Assembly: GCA_003141855.1 (NCBI GenBank)
Contig: PLNS01000012.1
Coordinates: 17,135 to 81,134, forward strand
Source of the DNA: Candidatus Bathyarchaeota archaeon
GTDB taxonomy: Archaea; Thermoproteota; Bathyarchaeia; Bathyarchaeales; Bathycorpusculaceae
Direction: 5' to 3'
Length of the DNA: 64,000 nucleotides
Of this stretch, positions 26,626 to 33,999 are shown piece after piece (the stretch's first letter is position 1; every line of letters begins with the position of its first letter). The position numbers and the translations under genes are program-made. The notes below the pieces were generated by a model. It was not told where the DNA came from. It saw only the letters and a program-made list of their open reading frames with translations, and did not search any database.

Positions 26626-27240
26626 TTATTTTTGTTTTTTAGTCTTTTCCTTCTTGTTTAGGGCTTGTAGTTTCTCTGTGATTTTTTCAGATCGTTTTTC
26701 TGCGGTGGCTAAGAGTGGTTTCCAGTCTTTGTTCTTGATAGTCGCCGTTAATTTTTCTGTTTGTGCGTACAGGTTTGCTAGGGCGTCGTTGAAGCGTTTT
26801 TCTGCTGCTTCGTCTGACTCAACTATTTCTAAGGCTTCTTCGGGGCATGATTCGACGCATTTTGGTTCGCCTTCACAGAGGTCGCATGCGATGGCTTTTC
26901 CGGTGTCGGAGTGGATGGTGATTCCTCCGTGTTCGCAGGCTTGTACGCACCAGTCGCAGCCTTTGCATTTATCCTCATCGATGATTAGTAAGCCTGTGCT
27001 CGCTGATTGCGAGAGTGCACGTTCGGGGCATGCTTTTACGCACCTTGCGTTTTGGCATCCTCGGCAAGTTAAAGCAAAATTGAAGACAGGCGCCATGCGG
27101 ACAACTCTGATTCTGGACCTGAGGGGATTCCAGATGCCTTCACCCTTCTCCACTGTGCAAGCGTACTCGCAGATTCCGCAGCCAATGCATTTGCCTGGGT
27201 CAACTGAAACGAATTTTCTTTGTTGAGTTTTAGCAGACAT
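26626..27240 (-). CDS. polyferredoxin, HycB/CooF-like 4Fe-4S subunit with C-terminal tail
   Basis: 204 residues from the ATG at 27240 (MSAKTQ); an upstream start would add 11 odd residues. Four cysteine motifs: CIGCGICEYAC near 19, CRGCQNARCVKACP near 58, CKGCDWCVQAC near 88, and CDLCEGEPKCVESCP near 113, enough for four 4Fe-4S clusters as in electron-transfer subunits of hydrogenases and CODH. The tail after residue 135 is charged and helical, with a lysine-rich end. No catalytic partner is adjacent. Confidence 0.87.
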   Translation of the reverse strand: MSAKTQQRKFVSVDPGKCIGCGICEYACTVEKGEGIWNPLRSRIRVVRMAPVFNFALTCRGCQNARCVKACPERALSQSASTGLLIIDEDKCKGCDWCVQACEHGGITIHSDTGKAIACDLCEGEPKCVESCPEEALEIVESDEAAEKRFNDALANLYAQTEKLTATIKNKDWKPLLATAEKRSEKITEKLQALNKKEKTKKQK

Positions 27241-27410
27241 TAATACCAAACCTTCTGGTGGGTAGAGTATCACTGTGCATAATTGGCTTTTAACCGTTAC
27301 CCAAGAAAAACGCTTTTTTCATGGAAAAGACGTTGAAAACACAAATTAACAACAATATGGTACGTAATGTGACTTTTAGTTATCGTTTGCTGTATTTTTG
27401 CCTTGGATGC

Positions 27411-27611: not shown

Positions 27612-28078
27612 ATAAATCACCAATCTGCTAAAAGACACAGTGGCAAATTAATTTTTCCTAAAAGGCATGGTTTGTGCGATGACTGGTTCGTTAATGCGCT
27701 TATGGTTTTTTCTTTTGTGTGGTTGTGGGTTTTTTCTGTTGCACGTCTTTTGGGTTGGGGGGTTTGCTGGTTTTTTGGTCAGGGTTGTTTTTTGCTTGCT
27801 GTTTGGTTGTGGTATAGGAGGTTTTGGCTTCACAAGTATGTTGGTTTGGTTGGTTGTGGATGTGAGCTATGTTGGGGTGAGCGGGTTGTGGAGAAACTAG
27901 AAACCCAAAATCTCCGCCCTACCCGAAAGCGCCGTCCCAGAATCCACCAGGACAACTAATGCAAACTAGAACTTTATGAGCGTGCTTTGCCACGCAGTAG
28001 CGAAAAGATTGCCAAGGAGTGATTTGAACCAGGAATAGGGGACTATACACCCAACCGTGGGAAAAGGTTACAAGTCTT
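27612..28078. other. intergenic region with strong G/T strand bias
   Basis: 467 bp between the tautomerase gene and the first island gene. Bases about 27690-27880 are almost all G and T on the plus strand, so several long but low-complexity frames appear in both directions. None has a convincing start, domain or codon pattern. It adjoins the left end of the tRNA-linked island. Confidence 0.55.
28041..28070 (-). repeat. island motif, copy 1
   Basis: ACACCCAACCGTGGGAAAAG with GTTA following. It lies just downstream of the frameshifted gene at 28079-28637. It matches copy 4 best. Confidence 0.6.
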
Positions 28079-28637
28079 TTATGGCAAATTTGTCCACACT
28101 GGTGTTACAGTCCAGTTGGTAACAACGCCTTCATGGTAGATGTCTAAGTCAATAATCACTGCCTGACCGCTAGTTAAATTTCCAAGTTGAGCTGGACCAA
28201 GTTGAATTAACAGAAGTAATTGACGAATCCGTCCCGTAATTGTATCCACTTACAAATGGCACGGTCATGTTTATCTCTAATACGCCTGTGCCAGAATAAG
28301 CTTCGACTTTTAATCCAGCGTTGTATGCTGTGCTGTTCCCCATGTTATAAGCGGACCCTTGAATGAAAAGCCGCCAAGACGGACCCCAATCGGTTTCCAG
28401 TTCAGTGACTCCTAAGTCTGTTATGACGTGAGGTTTGGATAAATCTGGCTGAACTGCGATTTGGTTTGTCAAATTGGCTATTTCTTTATTTTGATTTGAA
28501 ATTTGAGATTCTAACGAAGCTATTTTTGAATTACTATTATTTAATGTAGTGTTGTAATAAATTGCCGTTCCAGCAATTGCACTTACAAAGAGCATAGCAA
28601 CAATCAAAGCTGTTATTACGGTTCTTATCTTGCTCAT
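28079..28637 (-). pseudogene. secreted/membrane-anchored protein gene with 3' frameshift
   Basis: Read from ATG at 28637: an N-terminal membrane helix (ALIVAMLFVSAIAGTAIYY), a coiled coil (IASLESQISNQNKEIANLTN) and a beta-rich extracellular domain. The uninterrupted frame stops at 28170 after STWKFN, but the next frame continues the domain (GNLTSGQAVIIDLDIYHEG, then a VTPVWTN ending) to TAA at 28079-28081. A single-base indel near 28176-28195, in a short TCAACTTGG duplication, explains this. Either a fresh pseudogene, a programmed shift or an assembly error. Confidence 0.7.
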
Positions 28638-28685
28638 AATTTCAATTGGAAACAGTTTACAATAAAAGGTTATCCGTAAAAGTTC

Positions 28686-28705
28686 CTTGACTGTGGCTAG
28701 TCAAG
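28686..28705. promoter_or_regulatory. inverted repeat upstream of the 28637 gene
   Basis: CTTGACT and AGTCAAG, 7-bp perfect arms separated by 6 bp, 49 bp upstream of the start. The homologous leader at 31421-31452 has a 9-bp version. Confidence 0.6.
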
Positions 28706-28730
28706 GTTTCTGGACTTAAAAGATAGAGAG

Positions 28731-28761
28731 GGTGGGTACACCATATCGCTGGAAAAGGTCA
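28731..28761 (-). repeat. island motif, copy 2 (leader type)
   Basis: GGTGGGTACACCATATCGCT then GGAAAAGGTCA. GGTG and CACC form a small dyad. It lies between the tRNA fragment at 28783 and the inverted repeat at 28686. Confidence 0.75.
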
Positions 28762-28782
28762 AGGGGATAGGTTGTTGGTTGG

Positions 28783-28804
28783 TGCGGAGGGTGGGATTTG
28801 AACC
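28783..28804 (-). other. tRNA-Leu 3'-end fragment
   Basis: TGCGGAGGGTGGGATTTGAA and the next two bases are identical to the last 22 nt of the tRNA-Leu(GAG) gene at 32792. The copy then breaks off. Interpreted as an attachment-site scar. Confidence 0.75.
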
Positions 28805-28845
28805 TCAATAAGGTTTTTTTCCCGAAAGATACTTTGGCAAAGAAA

Positions 28846-28876
28846 GGGTAGGCAGATACTTGTGTAGGAAAAGGTC
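28846..28876 (-). repeat. island motif, copy 3, with vestigial coding tail
   Basis: Most diverged copy; ends GTAGGAAAAGGTCT. On the minus strand the DNA just before it encodes HRKTTNLSK and a TAG that forms part of the motif. This resembles the C-terminal tails of the genes at 29590 and 30334, but lies beyond the stop of the gene at 28916. Confidence 0.55.
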
Positions 28877-28915
28877 TACTTGCTCAGGTTTGTTGTTTTT
28901 CGATGCGTTCTACAT

Positions 28916-29458
28916 CTAAAGTCCACTGCTTGTGTAGATTAAATAGCTGTTGCCTATTGCGGTGACAACATAAACTGTTCCGCCATTATGAAACGGGTTT
29001 GGTGAATTGTTACCCTGTACCTGTATTGTTATTGTAACGCTTTGAGTAGGAGGTAACGCATATCCATTTTCTATCGCGGGAATAATTACAGGCACAGGGT
29101 TCATACTCCTATAAGGCGTCCCATCTATGATTATGTTCGTAATTGTGGCAGTATTAGCACCAGAGTTTTGAAGAGTAAACGTCATGTTCCAACCACCCGG
29201 ACCAGACCCGCCGTGAACATCAGTAGATGCCAGATTTTCATTTGCCACTATTATGCTTGTTGGGAAGGGAATAATAGATGGAGTGGGCAAAAGAGTTGGT
29301 GACGTGGTCGGAGTTGGAGCGGTAATTGTTGGAGTTGGTGTGGCAGTTGGAGAACTTTTACTGCTTAGACTGTTAATGAAAACTATAGCACCAACAGTAA
29401 CAAATAAAAGAGCAACCACAATGACAACAATTAACGAATAACTTAACCTACTCATCAC
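28916..29458 (-). CDS. secreted, membrane-anchored protein with Thr/Pro linker
   Basis: 180 residues. An N-terminal hydrophobic helix (LIVVIVVALLFVTVGAIVF) is followed by a linker of T, P and S repeats (about residues 33-65) and a beta-sandwich-like domain with conserved WNMTFTLQNSGANTATITNI, as in archaeal surface and pilin-like proteins. No catalytic motif. The linker is probably glycosylated outside the cell. Third of the island genes; its former C-terminal tail seems to persist downstream (see copy 3). Confidence 0.75.
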   Translation of the reverse strand: MMSRLSYSLIVVIVVALLFVTVGAIVFINSLSSKSSPTATPTPTITAPTPTTSPTLLPTPSIIPFPTSIIVANENLASTDVHGGSGPGGWNMTFTLQNSGANTATITNIIIDGTPYRSMNPVPVIIPAIENGYALPPTQSVTITIQVQGNNSPNPFHNGGTVYVVTAIGNSYLIYTSSGL

Positions 29459-29562
29459 TTCTCTCTCTTGCGTGAACTGATATGTATAACCCTCTTTTTA
29501 GTTCTATTCATGGAACATACTGTTCCCATCTTGGAACAACAAGTTGTAACTTTGCTTATTTA

Positions 29563-29592
29563 GGTGGGGCACCCAAGCGTGGGAAAAGGTCA
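29563..29592 (-). repeat. island motif, copy 4
   Basis: GGTGGGGCACCCAAGCGTGG then GAAAAGGTCA. The stop codon TGA of the gene at 29590 forms the first three bases of the motif on the minus strand. Confidence 0.75.
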
Positions 29593-30207
29593 TTGCTTCA
29601 GGTAAGCGGGTTTTCGATGCTTTCTATAAAGCATTATACCCACACTTATTCCGAAAACTACTGAGATGATAGAAACAACAGCTATGACGGAAAAAGACGA
29701 AGAAGGCTGTGGTTTTTCTATGAACCTTTCGGTTGGAAATGTAACTGTGGCATTGCTATGGGAGTTATCATGGGTATTAGCATAAACGGTCAATGTATGA
29801 TTACCGAAAGGAATCTGTTGAAACGTTGCGACAATTGAGGCGTTTAATGAGTTTACATAATTAGTCTGAATACCAAAAAGCTGGTGAATACCGTCTTGCC
29901 AATCCGCTTGGTAATAAACACTATCAATTATCCAAAAATACGAAGCCACATCTACTGTTAATGTAAAGTTGCTTGCTTGAATTATGGTTTGGTTTTCTGG
30001 CGATATAATCTCAACGATTGGCGGAATATGTGCTTCACGGATTGCAGGCGGTTGAATAATTGGTGAATTTGTATGCCATTGAGTAAACGAAACAATCGGT
30101 TCTATTTGGCTCTTAGCTATTGAAAACGAAGCCATGCTTGAAAGGCAAAGAATAAGAATCAAAGTAATTAGTTGCTTGGAAGACTTTGTTCTTGGCATGT
30201 TTATCAT
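29590..30207 (-). CDS. secreted protein with C-terminal membrane anchor
   Basis: 205 residues from ATG 30207, where a normal signal peptide begins (ITLILILCLSSMASFSIA); the frame is open to an ATG at 30252. The middle part contains a domain with VEIISPENQTIIQASNFTLT and PFGNHTLTVYANTHDNSHSN, typical of archaeal extracellular Ig-like repeats. A C-terminal helix (VIAVVSIISVVFGISVGIML) is followed by YRKHRKPAYLKQ, the same basic tail as the gene at 30334. Surface protein of unknown role. Confidence 0.75.
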   Translation of the reverse strand: MINMPRTKSSKQLITLILILCLSSMASFSIAKSQIEPIVSFTQWHTNSPIIQPPAIREAHIPPIVEIISPENQTIIQASNFTLTVDVASYFWIIDSVYYQADWQDGIHQLFGIQTNYVNSLNASIVATFQQIPFGNHTLTVYANTHDNSHSNATVTFPTERFIEKPQPSSSFSVIAVVSIISVVFGISVGIMLYRKHRKPAYLKQ

Positions 30208-30308
30208 TGAAGCAATAAGAAAAGGTTGCTTATAATTCTCCGCAGAGAACAACCTGTTCCTCTAAAAGAACGGTGAATAAGCCTTATGCTTTAACATAAA
30301 CATGAGTT

Positions 30309-30336
30309 AGGTATACAAAGGCATGGGAAAAGGTCA
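30309..30336 (-). repeat. island motif, copy 5
   Basis: GGCATGGGAAAAGGTCA part is conserved, the left arm is diverged. The stop codon TGA of the gene at 30334 overlaps its first bases on the minus strand. Confidence 0.65.
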
Positions 30337-31371
30337 ATCACTTAAGTTAGCGGGTTTTCGATGCCTAAAATTGATAGCTACAAAGAGAATAACCATCACC
30401 AAAGGTAAAAGTGCCAACAATGAAAACTCTGGAATTGTTGGAGAGGAAGTTGGTCCAAAATTGGGTGGAGAAGGTGTAGGAGTTGATATTGCAATGGATG
30501 TCGGCAACTCAACTATTTCGCTTTTGATATTAAACTGGCTGTTAAGAGGATAATTATCCTTATTGTTTGCATTTATTACGTAAGGGCCATCACCCATGCC
30601 ATCATTGTTAGTATTTGCACCGTTATAATCACTCCAATAATTGCCAACCGAGCCATTATCCCAAGTATTGATTGATTGAGGAACTACAAATGGATAGTTG
30701 GACTCTCTAATATCTAAAACTTGCAAACGATTATTTACAAAGTTGTTATGATAAAAAGTGTTGTTTGAACTATCGTAAAGAAGACAAGCAACTCCTGAAC
30801 TGTCTATAATGTTATTTGCAACAATGATGTTTTTAGTTGTCGAAATGAAATATGTGGCGTTGACATTGTTTACTAAGTTGTTTTTTGCTATAATGTTTGA
30901 AGAACCAGCTTCAATATAAATTGCAGCAGTATGCTGAAGCCAAGAAACACCTGATTTCACAGTATTATTAATTACAATACAATTTTCGGAATAGGTTAAT
31001 CGAATGCCTGACTGAAGGTTGCTAATTACAAAATTTTCTAAAATTACGTTTCTAACTAAGAATAGGTCAATTCCACCAAAGCCGTTACCCCAACCTGAAA
31101 CCATAAACCCATTCCCATCAATGATAGTGTTGTTTCTTTTTATCTCAATTGCACCTGTTATGCTGTCAGTCAAGGTGTAACTATTTCCAGTTTGTTTGAT
31201 TGGTGCTGTTGAGGGACTAACGCTGCCATCGGAGTTTATGATTATTGGCGGGTGTGTGTTTATCGTTGATGTCGGGGAAGGAGTTGTCAGTTGGGATTCA
31301 GCTATAACTGGAATCTCTGCAATGAACATACTTAGAAGCAAGATAACAATAAACGAATGTATCTTCTTCAT
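30334..31371 (-). CDS. parallel beta-helix (NosD-like) surface protein with PEF-CTERM-like anchor
   Basis: 345 residues from ATG 31371 (signal peptide HSFIVILLLSMFIAEIPVIA). The body has right-handed beta-helix repeats (NNTIIDGNGFMVSG, NIIAKNNLVNNVNA, NIIVANNIIDSSG) and the NosD-type ending NYWSDYNGANTNNDGMGDGP. The C terminus reads TIPEFSLLALLPLVMVILF then RHRK, a PEF-CTERM-like sorting signal followed by basic residues. Predicted to be exported and processed or anchored at the surface; ligand unknown. Confidence 0.85.
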   Translation of the reverse strand: MKKIHSFIVILLLSMFIAEIPVIAESQLTTPSPTSTINTHPPIIINSDGSVSPSTAPIKQTGNSYTLTDSITGAIEIKRNNTIIDGNGFMVSGWGNGFGGIDLFLVRNVILENFVISNLQSGIRLTYSENCIVINNTVKSGVSWLQHTAAIYIEAGSSNIIAKNNLVNNVNATYFISTTKNIIVANNIIDSSGVACLLYDSSNNTFYHNNFVNNRLQVLDIRESNYPFVVPQSINTWDNGSVGNYWSDYNGANTNNDGMGDGPYVINANNKDNYPLNSQFNIKSEIVELPTSIAISTPTPSPPNFGPTSSPTIPEFSLLALLPLVMVILFVAINFRHRKPANLSD

Positions 31372-31420
31372 ATAAGATGCGTATTGATTTGGTATCATAA
31401 GAGCCTTTTCGTCAAACTTT

Positions 31421-31452
31421 CTTGACTAAGCTTGAACTACTGGTTAGTCAAG
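31421..31452. promoter_or_regulatory. inverted repeat upstream of the beta-helix gene
   Basis: CTTGACTAA and TTAGTCAAG are perfect 9-bp arms around a 14-bp loop. Same place as the 28686 repeat in the other leader. Candidate operator or hairpin. Confidence 0.65.
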
Positions 31453-31476
31453 GTTTCTTGACAAACAAAAACAGAG

Positions 31477-31507
31477 GGTGGGTACACCACATCGCTGGAA
31501 AAGGTCA
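31477..31507 (-). repeat. island motif, copy 6 (leader type)
   Basis: GGTGGGTACACCACATCGCT then GGAAAAGGTCA; differs from copy 2 at a single base over the shared 31. Confidence 0.8.
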
Positions 31508-31546
31508 AGGCTTTGTATCTTAGGATTTCCACAGGTTTTTGGTTGG

Positions 31547-31591
31547 TGCGGAGGATGGGATTTGAACCCACGAACCCCTGCGGGATAGGAG
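31547..31591 (-). other. tRNA-Leu 3'-half fragment
   Basis: 45 bp matching the 3' half of the tRNA-Leu(GAG) gene at 32792 with one mismatch (A for G at 31554), from the discriminator base through the T-arm and variable arm up to the anticodon stem, where the match stops. It cannot fold as a tRNA. Probable attachment-site duplicate. Confidence 0.85.
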
Positions 31592-31732
31592 GGTACTACG
31601 TGTCCTTAACCACGATTTGCAACAATACATCTCGCGAGCAACAAGGAATTCTGAGACGCTTTTGCAATTTGCCAGTAAGAAAAAGTGTTAAAAGCTAAGT
31701 GCTGTATATAGCAAGCGAGAGAGAGATTTGAG

Positions 31733-31927
31733 ATGACCAATTTCACACAAAAAGACGCAAAAAGTATTCGCAAAAAACTTCAAACAATCGTTGATGATGC
31801 AATGGCTACTGACGATTGTGATCATAATTGCAGAGAATGTGCTTTGCTTTCAAGCATACGAGCAGGAAAAGGAACACAGTGCACTCTTAACATATTAGAA
31901 TTATGCCTTAAGGGAGAACTCGGATAA
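31733..31927 (+). CDS. small cysteine-containing hypothetical protein
   Basis: 64 residues, ATG preceded by GAGAGAGAG-type purines that could act as a ribosome site. Four cysteines in CDHNCRECALLSSIRAGKGT and the following QC suggest a zinc or cluster site. The N-terminal half is helical and charged. Not recognised. The only plus-strand gene in the tRNA-linked region. Confidence 0.55.
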   Translation: MTNFTQKDAKSIRKKLQTIVDDAMATDDCDHNCRECALLSSIRAGKGTQCTLNILELCLKGELG

Positions 31928-32006
31928 ATCAAGAACACAAAATTCAGTAGACCGTTTAGTAGCGATTCGAATATTACAAGTTACATTAAATAGCGTAAGA
32001 GAAATG

Positions 32007-32519
32007 CTAACTTAAGGAAGAGCGGACTATCCATTCATTGCTTGATAAATCGTAGTTCCATTCCCTATAACCTGTCTTCATATATTTCTCTACACGATTC
32101 GTGAAGTATGAGCGAATTTTATTGAGCGCCTCCTTACTCTCAAGAGGAGGGTCAAAGAATTTATGCTCATTGGGTTTCAAGACCTTTCTAATCTCCGTGC
32201 AGTCGGTGTCTATATCGTTGCTTAGAGATATCTGAAATGGGTATGCCTTACATGTAAGGGGTCTTTTTTCATATATTTTACAAACGTTGCCTTCTAAATG
32301 GGGACATGGGGAAACACTAAGCTGGTAAGAAATCACCTTTTCAGGCTTTTTTCTGCCTAATGCGCGTGACGGCTTAACCACGTCATAATTGAACAAATCT
32401 CTCTCTTTTTCAGTAAGAAAGAGCCCCTTGGATATGCCATCCTTGGTTTTAATAAGAGATGAACAGCAAACCCCGCATCTATTGCAAGAAATCGGAATGG
32501 GTTTTAGCAATGCAGACAC
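32007..32519 (-). CDS. YkgJ-family cysteine cluster protein
   Basis: 170 residues. CNRCGVCCSSL near residue 13, CPHLEGNVCKIYEKRPLTC near 73 and KAYPFQ follow the YkgJ (CxxCx2CC, then CxxL..C..Y..RP..C) pattern for metal chelation. An RRKPE-like basic insertion lies in the middle. It sits between the intact tRNA-Leu and the first tRNA fragment, so it would be cargo of the outer unit. Function unknown; relative at 17104. Confidence 0.85.
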   Translation of the reverse strand: MSALLKPIPISCNRCGVCCSSLIKTKDGISKGLFLTEKERDLFNYDVVKPSRALGRKKPEKVISYQLSVSPCPHLEGNVCKIYEKRPLTCKAYPFQISLSNDIDTDCTEIRKVLKPNEHKFFDPPLESKEALNKIRSYFTNRVEKYMKTGYREWNYDLSSNEWIVRSSLS

Positions 32520-32791
32520 CGCTTAAAAAATATTATGAAGATAGCATTTAAGACTTGTTGGCGGTCGTATTTCTTAGAATCCAGTAGACTGCTATCAACG
32601 TTCTGTGCGTTTAACGTGATACTTCTGAGTGGTGCTTGTTGAGTCATACGAAAAGCCTTTAAGCCGATTGCATCAAACAAGCGAAGAGAGGATGCATTCT
32701 TTCTCAATTGAATTGGTAAGACTGGTGAACAATGGTAATCAATCGCTGGTAAACAATAAGGCTGACTTGAGCCCCTTTAGGGCGAAAGAAG
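32520..32791. other. intergenic region next to tRNA-Leu
   Basis: 272 bp between the YkgJ gene and the tRNA 3' end. No gene or copy of the island motif is seen. A GCCCCTTTAGGGC hairpin near 32771-32783 directly beyond the tRNA end could help termination. Confidence 0.5.
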
Positions 32792-32876
32792 TGCGGAGGG
32801 TGGGATTTGAACCCACGAACCCCTGCGGGATAGGAGCCTCAGTCCTACGCCTTTGGCCATGCTGGGCGACCTCCGC
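32792..32876 (-). tRNA. tRNA-Leu, anticodon GAG
   Basis: 85 nt. The acceptor stem GCGGAGG pairs with CCTCCGC, followed by discriminator A. Anticodon stem TAGGA/TCCTA with loop CTGAGGC gives anticodon GAG (leucine CUC/CUU). A long variable arm (TCCCGCAGGGG) confirms class II. The T-arm is GTGGG-TTCAAAT-CCCAC. No intron. Reading its other strand gives the spurious peptide GFEPTNPCGIG. Confidence 0.95.
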
Positions 32877-33031: not shown

Positions 33032-33048
33032 ATGTTTAGGTGTTAAAA

Positions 33049-33999
33049 ATGAAAATCTACAAAAACGTTTTAGAAACAATCGGAAAAACACCCCTAGTCC
33101 AAATAAACAAACTAACCCAAGACACCAACGCCACCATATTAGCAAAAATGGAATCCAGAAACCCAGGCGGAAGCGTCAAAGACCGCATCTGCGATAGCAT
33201 GATAGCGGAAGCCGAAAAACAAGGCATAATCAAACCCGGTGCAACCCTCATCGAACCCACAAGCGGCAACACAGGCATCGGCTTAGCCATGGTCGCAGCC
33301 GTAAAAGGCTACAAACTAATCCTCACCATGCCCGAAACCATGAGCATCGAACGCCGCAACCTCCTCAAAGCCTACGGCGCACAACTCGTCCTCACACCAG
33401 GACCAGAAGGCATGGGCGGAGCCATCAAAAAAGCCGAAGAACTCACCGCAAACACACCCAACAGCTTCATGCCCCAACAATTCAAAAACCTAGCCAACCC
33501 CAAAGTGCACAGAGAAATCACGGGACCAGAAATCTGGGAAGACACAGACGGCAAAGTAGACATCCTAGTCTCAGGTGTCGGCACGGGCGGAACCATAACA
33601 GGCATAGCCCAATACATCAAACCGCAAAAACCAAGCTTCAAATCTGTCGCCGTAGAACCAGCAGCCTCACCAGTCTTAAGCGGCGGCCAGAAAGGACCCC
33701 ACAAAATCCAAGGAATAGGCGCAGGCTTCAAACCCGACGTACTAAAACTCGACTTAGTGGATGAGATATTCAAAGTAACAGACGACCAAGCATTGCAAAC
33801 GGCGAGGCAACTTGCACAAAGGGAAGGTTTACTCGTCGGCATATCCTCTGGAGCAGCAGCCTATGCAGCTATAGAAATCGCGAAACGACCAGAAAACAAG
33901 GGCAAACTCATCGTTGTCATTCTTCCAGACACGGGCGAACGCTACCTAAGCACAGTGCTATTCCAAGAGCCGTCCACAAACGCAGCCCCCACCATCTAA
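33049..33999 (+). CDS. cysK: cysteine synthase (O-acetylserine sulfhydrylase)
   Basis: 316 residues from ATG 33049; a GTG nine bases earlier is possible. PLP enzyme: NPGGSVKDR near 42 with the Schiff-base lysine, [15 protein letters not shown] near 73, [10 protein letters not shown] near 177 (phosphate loop), and SGAAAYAA near 265. It uses O-acetylserine and sulfide. The serine acetyltransferase gene follows 67 bp downstream, giving the complete two-step cysteine pathway. Confidence 0.95.

Follow-up and report, generated by a model that had tools for sequence, protein, structure and literature searches.

Between a ferredoxin-type gene and the only tRNA gene, tRNA-Leu(GAG), of a 64,000-nt stretch of Candidatus Bathyarchaeota archaeon DNA (contig PLNS01000012.1; 'the window' below is this whole stretch) lies an island of secreted-protein genes and fragments of the same tRNA (Table 1). 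The GC content of the 28-32.8 kb stretch is 36-41% versus 45-50% on either side. The source genome amounts to 2.39 Mb in 30 contigs; its arginyl-tRNA synthetase shares up to 90% identity with those of Candidatus Bathyarchaeota metagenome-assembled genomes (MAGs) named palsa and bog, and the relatives identified in this comparison include Candidatus Bathycorpusculum. All genomes compared were draft MAGs; G numbers denote genomes and L numbers loci or contigs, with G021 belonging to the same genus as the window genome. The tRNA genes of the window were called with ARAGORN, and matches to tRNA fragments were evaluated with BLAST against a set of 26 loci.

A first-pass annotation had described two copies of the tRNA 3′ end beyond the intact gene; both were found, with slightly extended ends. 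The copy of the 3′ half (scar 1; 46 nt, 98% identity) is situated 1.2 kb beyond the tRNA, the copy of the 3′ end (scar 2; 23 nt) ∼2.8 kb beyond scar 1, so that direct repeats of the tRNA 3′ end mark distal boundaries as in tRNA-integrated elements. A 36-nt block is common to positions 28769-28804 and 31533-31568 (94% identity). The E-values of the two tRNA fragments, 2.2e-18 and 4.8e-7, exclude chance. Besides the intact gene only 3′ parts of tRNAs were seen in the window, with no full-length copies or 5′ parts. A weaker piece, GGTTCAAATCACTCC, suggests a third tRNA-like remnant; at its score (at least 22) about one other match per strand is present in the 64-kb window, besides the tRNA and scars 1 and 2.

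Both scars encode CCA: GGTTGGTGCGG, read as its reverse complement, is the acceptor stem followed by discriminator A, CCA and ACC; the intact gene reads CCTCCGC-A-CTTC, without CCA. Since the scars have CCA and the present gene does not, the newest insertion probably replaced the 3′ end of the gene: in the simplest reading it brought a CCA-less 3′ end and displaced the older end, the present scar 1. The 3′ flank ACTTC presumably came with the attachment (att) site of that newest element. Most tRNA genes seen in the window genome encode CCA, tRNA-Leu(GAG) being an exception; for this reason a SINE-like or reverse-transcribed source of the CCA in the scars was rejected.

The same leader stands behind each scar, as had been noted earlier: CCA, ACCAACCAAMAACCT, a motif (motif M, below), an inverted repeat and the start of a secreted-protein gene. 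The two leaders are homologous over ∼140 nt and differ by several substitutions and an 18-nt deletion. Together the tRNA and scars delimit elements designated E1 to E3. The cargo is indeed mostly surface proteins: a NosD-type beta-helix protein, homologues of which occur in L124 and L206, and two further secreted proteins in E2, a coiled-coil secreted protein in E3; E1 carries a CxxCxxCC protein. The weak match of the 155-aa E3 protein to an Rz-like spanin PHROG (2e-4) is probably due to its coiled coil. The HRKTTNLSK tail codons of the 180-aa gene survive out of frame past its stop (28883-28915), an apparent sign of decay. In the list of open reading frames (ORFs) we saw no integrase ORF within 28041-32876, in agreement with the first reading, only a putative stub.

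Tandem integration at tRNA-Leu(GAG) is well supported. The earlier proposal of two related elements, each leaving a tRNA end piece, holds as to mechanism; the number of insertions is probably three (tRNA to scar 1, scar 1 to scar 2, scar 2 to candidate scar 3). The island is what is left, in worn form, of two or three viruses or plasmids inserted in succession; of their genes, almost only those of cell-surface proteins survive.

Table 1. Features of the tRNA-Leu(GAG) island and its flanks (positions in the window)
Feature	Positions	Strand	Basis
Host flank: ferredoxin-type 4Fe-4S protein gene, next gene at empty site	26626..27273	-	Relatives
Candidate scar 3, degraded	28016..28030	-	Repeat family D8 and score scan
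Element E3 remnant (putatively oldest), between scar 2 and candidate scar 3	28031..28779	.	Scars
Motif M6	28034..28078	-	26.4 bits
Secreted coiled-coil protein, 155 aa	28170..28637	-	ORF and domain search
Operator-like repeats upstream of 155-aa gene	28673..28718	.	Repeat family D4
Motif M5	28722..28772	-	34.4 bits
Shorter leader stub after scar 2, homologous to scar 1 leader	28761..28779	-	Alignment
Scar 2, tRNA-Leu 3′ end (28782-28804) and encoded CCA (28780-28782)	28780..28804	-	Repeat search, BLAST
Element E2 remnant, between scars 1 and 2	28805..31543	.	Scars and GC (36-40% versus 45-50% in flanks)
Weakly similar to the DNA upstream of the scar in G021; may be an int(N) remnant	28805..28846	-	Shuffles 1.2%, background 2.4%
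Motif M4	28839..28888	-	26.4 bits
Secreted protein, 180 aa	28916..29458	-	ORF list, sequence
Motif M3	29562..29603	-	33.6 bits
Secreted protein, 220 aa, weak Big_7 match, tail RKHRKPAYLKQ	29590..30252	-	ORF and domain search
Motif M2, overlaps stop of NosD-like gene	30297..30348	-	33 bits
NosD/beta-helix surface protein, 354 aa, tail FRHRKPANLSD	30334..31398	-	PF05048, 5e-17
Paired palindromic operator-like repeats, GTCAAG-N4-CTTGAC type, upstream of NosD-like gene	31408..31465	.	Repeat search
Motif M1 TTGACCTTTTCCAGCGATGTGGTGTACCCACCC	31468..31516	-	Model R1, 35 bits
Putative int(C) stub after scar 1, GSNPILRT|NQKPVEILRYKA	31507..31543	-	Alignment to G021 int(C) codons
Scar 1, tRNA-Leu 3′ half (31546-31591) and encoded CCA (31544-31546)	31544..31591	-	Repeat search, BLAST
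Element E1 (putatively newest), 1.2 kb between tRNA and scar 1	31592..32790	.	Bounded by tRNA and 46-nt copy
E1 cargo: small Cys-rich ORF, 64 aa, no family	31733..31927	+	ORF list and domain search
E1 cargo: CxxCxxCC zinc/iron-chelating domain protein, 170 aa	32007..32519	-	PF03692, E=1.3e-10
Intact tRNA-Leu(GAG), integration target, no encoded CCA	32791..32876	-	ARAGORN and sequence
Host flank: cysteine synthase gene, other side of tRNA	33040..33999	+	Adjoins tRNA-Leu(GAG) in many same-genus relatives

The same site in relatives

Both within the genus and in more distant relatives, the gene after tRNA-Leu(GAG) is the ferredoxin-type gene (relatives with rearranged gene order were left out of the occupancy counts). 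The gap between the two is short in three relatives (164 bp in L284/G029, 194 bp in L331/G002 and 142 bp in L323) and longer in others (691, 1460, 1773, 2320 and 5890 bp; 5518 bp in the window), where it is filled with different DNA; empty sites thus occur in close as well as distant relatives. In G005 a 3′-end tRNA scar is located just ahead of the ferredoxin gene. G021 has a full 6.3-kb element between the tRNA and a matching 3′-tRNA scar. Immediately behind the tRNA it has a decayed tyrosine integrase; it further contains a weak match to primase-polymerase (Prim-Pol), a regulator of winged-helix type and a secreted gene that shows the operator-like repeat and motif of the window. From the sites seen and the content of the G021 element it follows that occupancy is variable and the content mobile-element-like; the comparison proposed in the first-pass annotation found empty, differently filled and occupied sites, not one syntenic region shared whole.

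Other 3′-tRNA fragments were noticed near tRNA-Ala(GGC), tRNA-Leu(CAG) and tRNA-Trp (L133:5123-5142, L135:9815-9843 and L131:7119-7154, respectively), and these appear to be more small tRNA islands. Fragments of another kind are present in G018 and G011, 0.7 kb downstream of the tRNA-Leu(GAG) gene; spanning tRNA positions 14-75 and 41-74, respectively, they are internal, lack the 3′ end and are unlike att scars.

Integrase genes joined to tRNAs

Suicidal (SSV-type, type I) archaeal integrases, and elements trapped by them, have been described for SSV1, pTN3 and pT26-2, and PF16795 has been reported for these integrase families (PMC8371274). Several relatives show the corresponding layout, in which the C-terminal gene part, int(C), is joined to a tRNA after integration (intact in L146, decayed in L141 and L143). 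The int(C) frame of G021 is open from inside the tRNA (VGSNPTLRTIKEPAKSKD, VGSNPTLRTIKEP; PF00589, 1.5e-5); in G039 an intact int(C) with the catalytic motifs reads out of tRNA-Leu(CAG) (PF00589, 1.9e-15), and in G046 a decayed one out of tRNA-Phe. The contigs of the last two end before the distal scar. G015, where a tRNA-like scar is followed by ∼70 integrase codons with stops, an operator and a secreted gene, looks like the anatomy of the window at an earlier stage of decay. An uncut gene of this kind was seen in one case, the tailed-virus contig L266 (with terminase and portal genes): its integrase has a zinc ribbon and then EGSRVQIPPGT, encoded by a stretch with 23/23 nt identical to tRNA-Ala(CGC) of the window genome, which places an att core inside the integrase ORF.

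In the window, the scar 1 leader aligns with the first int(C) codons of G021 in the register expected after a tRNA, a match equalled or beaten by 0.15% of shuffles and by 0.075% of window positions. Because part of the leader looks like the first int(C) codons, the absence of a recombinase, noted at first as unusual for an autonomous element, is better explained by decay of a suicidal integrase than by an unusual non-autonomous element. For the window itself, a split integrase gene would be the best available account of the missing recombinase.

Several observations weigh against this account. The int(C) stub of scar 1 has only ∼26 aligned nt, and that of scar 2 is too short to be significant against G021 on its own. 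The search for int(N), the zinc-ribbon part, beside any scar returned whole integrases and short zinc-ribbon ORFs, none of them fused to a tRNA end; the resemblance at the scar 2 edge of E2 (Table 1) is suggestive only. The G021 int(C) is itself broken, so it does not demonstrate joining of its N- and C-parts in frame. In E1, nothing indicative of an integrase was seen. Finally, most other integrases seen in the genus have the intact type II layout, so that E2 and E3 could have used such an integrase and then lost it.

That last possibility, tandem integration by conventional type II integrases (gene intact beside att) that were later deleted, with the likeness to int(C) incidental or derived from recombination between elements, we consider unlikely. 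It agrees with the many intact zinc-ribbon integrases of the genus at tRNA 3′ ends, including tRNA-Cys of the window genome, and with an E1 devoid of an int-like flank; however, it does not account for the register of the scar 1 match, for the ∼70-codon intermediate of G015 or for G021, where int(C) directly follows tRNA-Leu(GAG). Local duplication of one element end, by homologous recombination between surface-gene cassettes, in place of two integrations is highly improbable: the leaders can be aligned and the genes share tails and motifs able to recombine, but the leaders have diverged by substitutions and a deletion, the tRNA pieces are of unequal length (46 versus 23 nt) and are followed by unrelated genes. 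We give hardly any credence to the idea that the fragments are pseudogenes left by an old array of tandem tRNA-Leu genes, between which surface genes were inserted, a reading already disfavoured by the fact that the pieces in the window, G021 and G005 all end at the exact tRNA 3′ end with differing 5′ starts, like att cores, and also by the empty sites, even though the internal fragments of G018 and G011 indicate that tRNA pseudogenes occur at the locus.

Full-length zinc-ribbon tyrosine integrases with their 3′ ends at the 3′ ends of tRNAs (Leu, Pro, Cys, Phe, Ser) recur across the genus and the order (L144, L151, L152, L156, L158, L161, L163, L165, L166). A Pfam search of the tRNA-joined and att-containing integrases gave PF00589 and weak zinc-ribbon matches only, and no PF16795; integrases of the G039 and L266 type are therefore not filed in the SSV, pTN3 and pT26-2 families. 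In a tree of 25 rows, support for the grouping of the G039 and L266 proteins among type II zinc-ribbon integrases was weak (85/59); the G021 fragment could not be placed. Taken together, the sequences suggest SSV-like ('suicidal') integrases built from zinc-ribbon/PF00589 proteins and not from the described PF16795 family.

Surface-protein cargo, motif M and the palindrome

Many surface-protein genes of the genus end with an RRHRKTANLKQ-like tail, a stop codon and CCTTTTCCCACG, the stop codon overlapping GACCTTTTCCCACG. This motif M, whose sites were scored in bits with sequence model R1, follows each of the four secreted genes of the island and once each of the two leaders. These six are half of the 12 sites in the window genome; arrays were seen in G003, G009, G016 and G017, and matches outside the genus are weak. 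Elsewhere in the window genome, L241 (G000:C6, ∼59.8-62.4 kb) contains three motif-M units, each arranged head to tail with the next, together with secreted genes. Motif M, first taken for an island motif, thus appears to be a genus-restricted 3′ module of surface-protein genes, found in viruses and chromosomal arrays too. Its RNA has no consensus fold; outside genes with the tail its left edge is sharp. Most likely M is a 3′-end or termination module of surface genes.

It is very unlikely that M is a 3′ border of surface-gene cassettes shuffled by dedicated recombination between viruses, integrated elements and chromosomal arrays, integron-like though without a structured attC; the idea draws on the sharp left edge of M at the stop codon and on its right edge at the virus backbone in L272. 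The structured attC-like site of an integron cassette array proper was not seen in M, and Kelch genes of viruses occupy the same site without M. For the left edge of these virus cassettes, a match by eye to an M-like partner site found no support from model R1.

The inverted repeat of the leader is present as described, but it extends well beyond the island: the palindrome TAGTCAAG-AAAC-CTTGAC occurs genus-wide at >100 places in 19 of the 37 genomes, with zero control matches, as well as in one genome of the same order and in virus contigs. It is often found in tandem pairs 24-33 bp apart, and would be an operator-like site.

Genes of the same kind are carried by viruses. Provirus L125 has such surface genes between terminase and portal. 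Three close tailed-virus contigs from IMG/VR (L199, L200 and L272) have different secreted genes at one shared position close to the major head protein (a Kelch gene, a 330-aa gene and, in L272, a gene with tail and M), flanked by genes 89-95% identical in amino acids; in L272 the backbone shared with L199 resumes after M. An exact-pattern search for M in IMG/VR gave 12 hits, only L272 with gene-tail context; the others look like chance. An accessory gene set amid conserved genes of a virus, and differing from one close virus to the next, is what is termed a moron; it was observed here for the gene type rather than for the genes of the window, whose surface-protein cargo may be called moron-like by resemblance.

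A history of the island and its counterparts

We consider it fairly probable that tRNA-Leu(GAG) was entered repeatedly, by E2 and E3 with a suicidal tyrosine integrase, that these elements later decayed with their surface genes kept, and that E1 came last. The tRNA 3′ end would have served time and again as the attachment site (attB) of integrative elements, tailed viruses or plasmid-like, each insertion restoring a whole tRNA and leaving the displaced 3′ end as a scar. The older E2 and E3 most likely bore an integrase gene with a tRNA-like att core inside it; after insertion int(C) would begin at the tRNA and, the gene being split, excision would need intact integrase supplied from elsewhere. 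Both gene halves would then have decayed to a few codons and the replication and virion genes been lost, while moron-like surface genes were kept with their 3′ module M, some with the operator-like palindrome upstream. E1, with its 46-nt core, would have taken away the encoded CCA.

If so, a common puzzle, tRNA scars without a recombinase, would be explained by integrases that destroy their own gene. The data suggest that suicidal integration occurs outside the PF16795 family, both in Bathyarchaeia and on a contig of a tailed virus, so that an independent origin can be tested. As one kind of surface-protein gene is found in viruses, decayed insertions and chromosomal arrays, the decay of viruses after integration may be one way for host archaea to alter their cell surface.

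The system resembles SSV-type suicidal integration in the tRNA-derived att core within the integrase ORF (L266), in the in-frame fusion of int(C) with the tRNA that results from integration (L146, L141) and in the stacking of elements at one tRNA. It differs from the SSV, pTN3 and pT26-2 families in having PF00589 with an N-terminal zinc ribbon instead of PF16795 (PMC8371274); unlike those described, its hosts belong to Bathyarchaeia, and a contig of a tailed virus is one of its carriers. With type II (pNOB8-like) elements it shares the tRNA 3′-end target, the direct repeat and the restored whole tRNA; there, however, the integrase gene stays whole, whereas none is present in the window. Genes of the cargo type are similar to prophage morons, or lysogenic conversion genes, in being accessory, with their own upstream signal, between conserved head genes and variable at one site (L199, L200, L272), but they are archaeal and encode surface proteins with a shared C-terminal tail and 3′ module M. 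Tailed viruses and proviruses of the same class, Bathyarchaeia, some with integrases, have been described (PMC10848311, PMC11705971); the parts of these two reports consulted contain no description of decayed stacks at tRNA-Leu(GAG) or of motif M.

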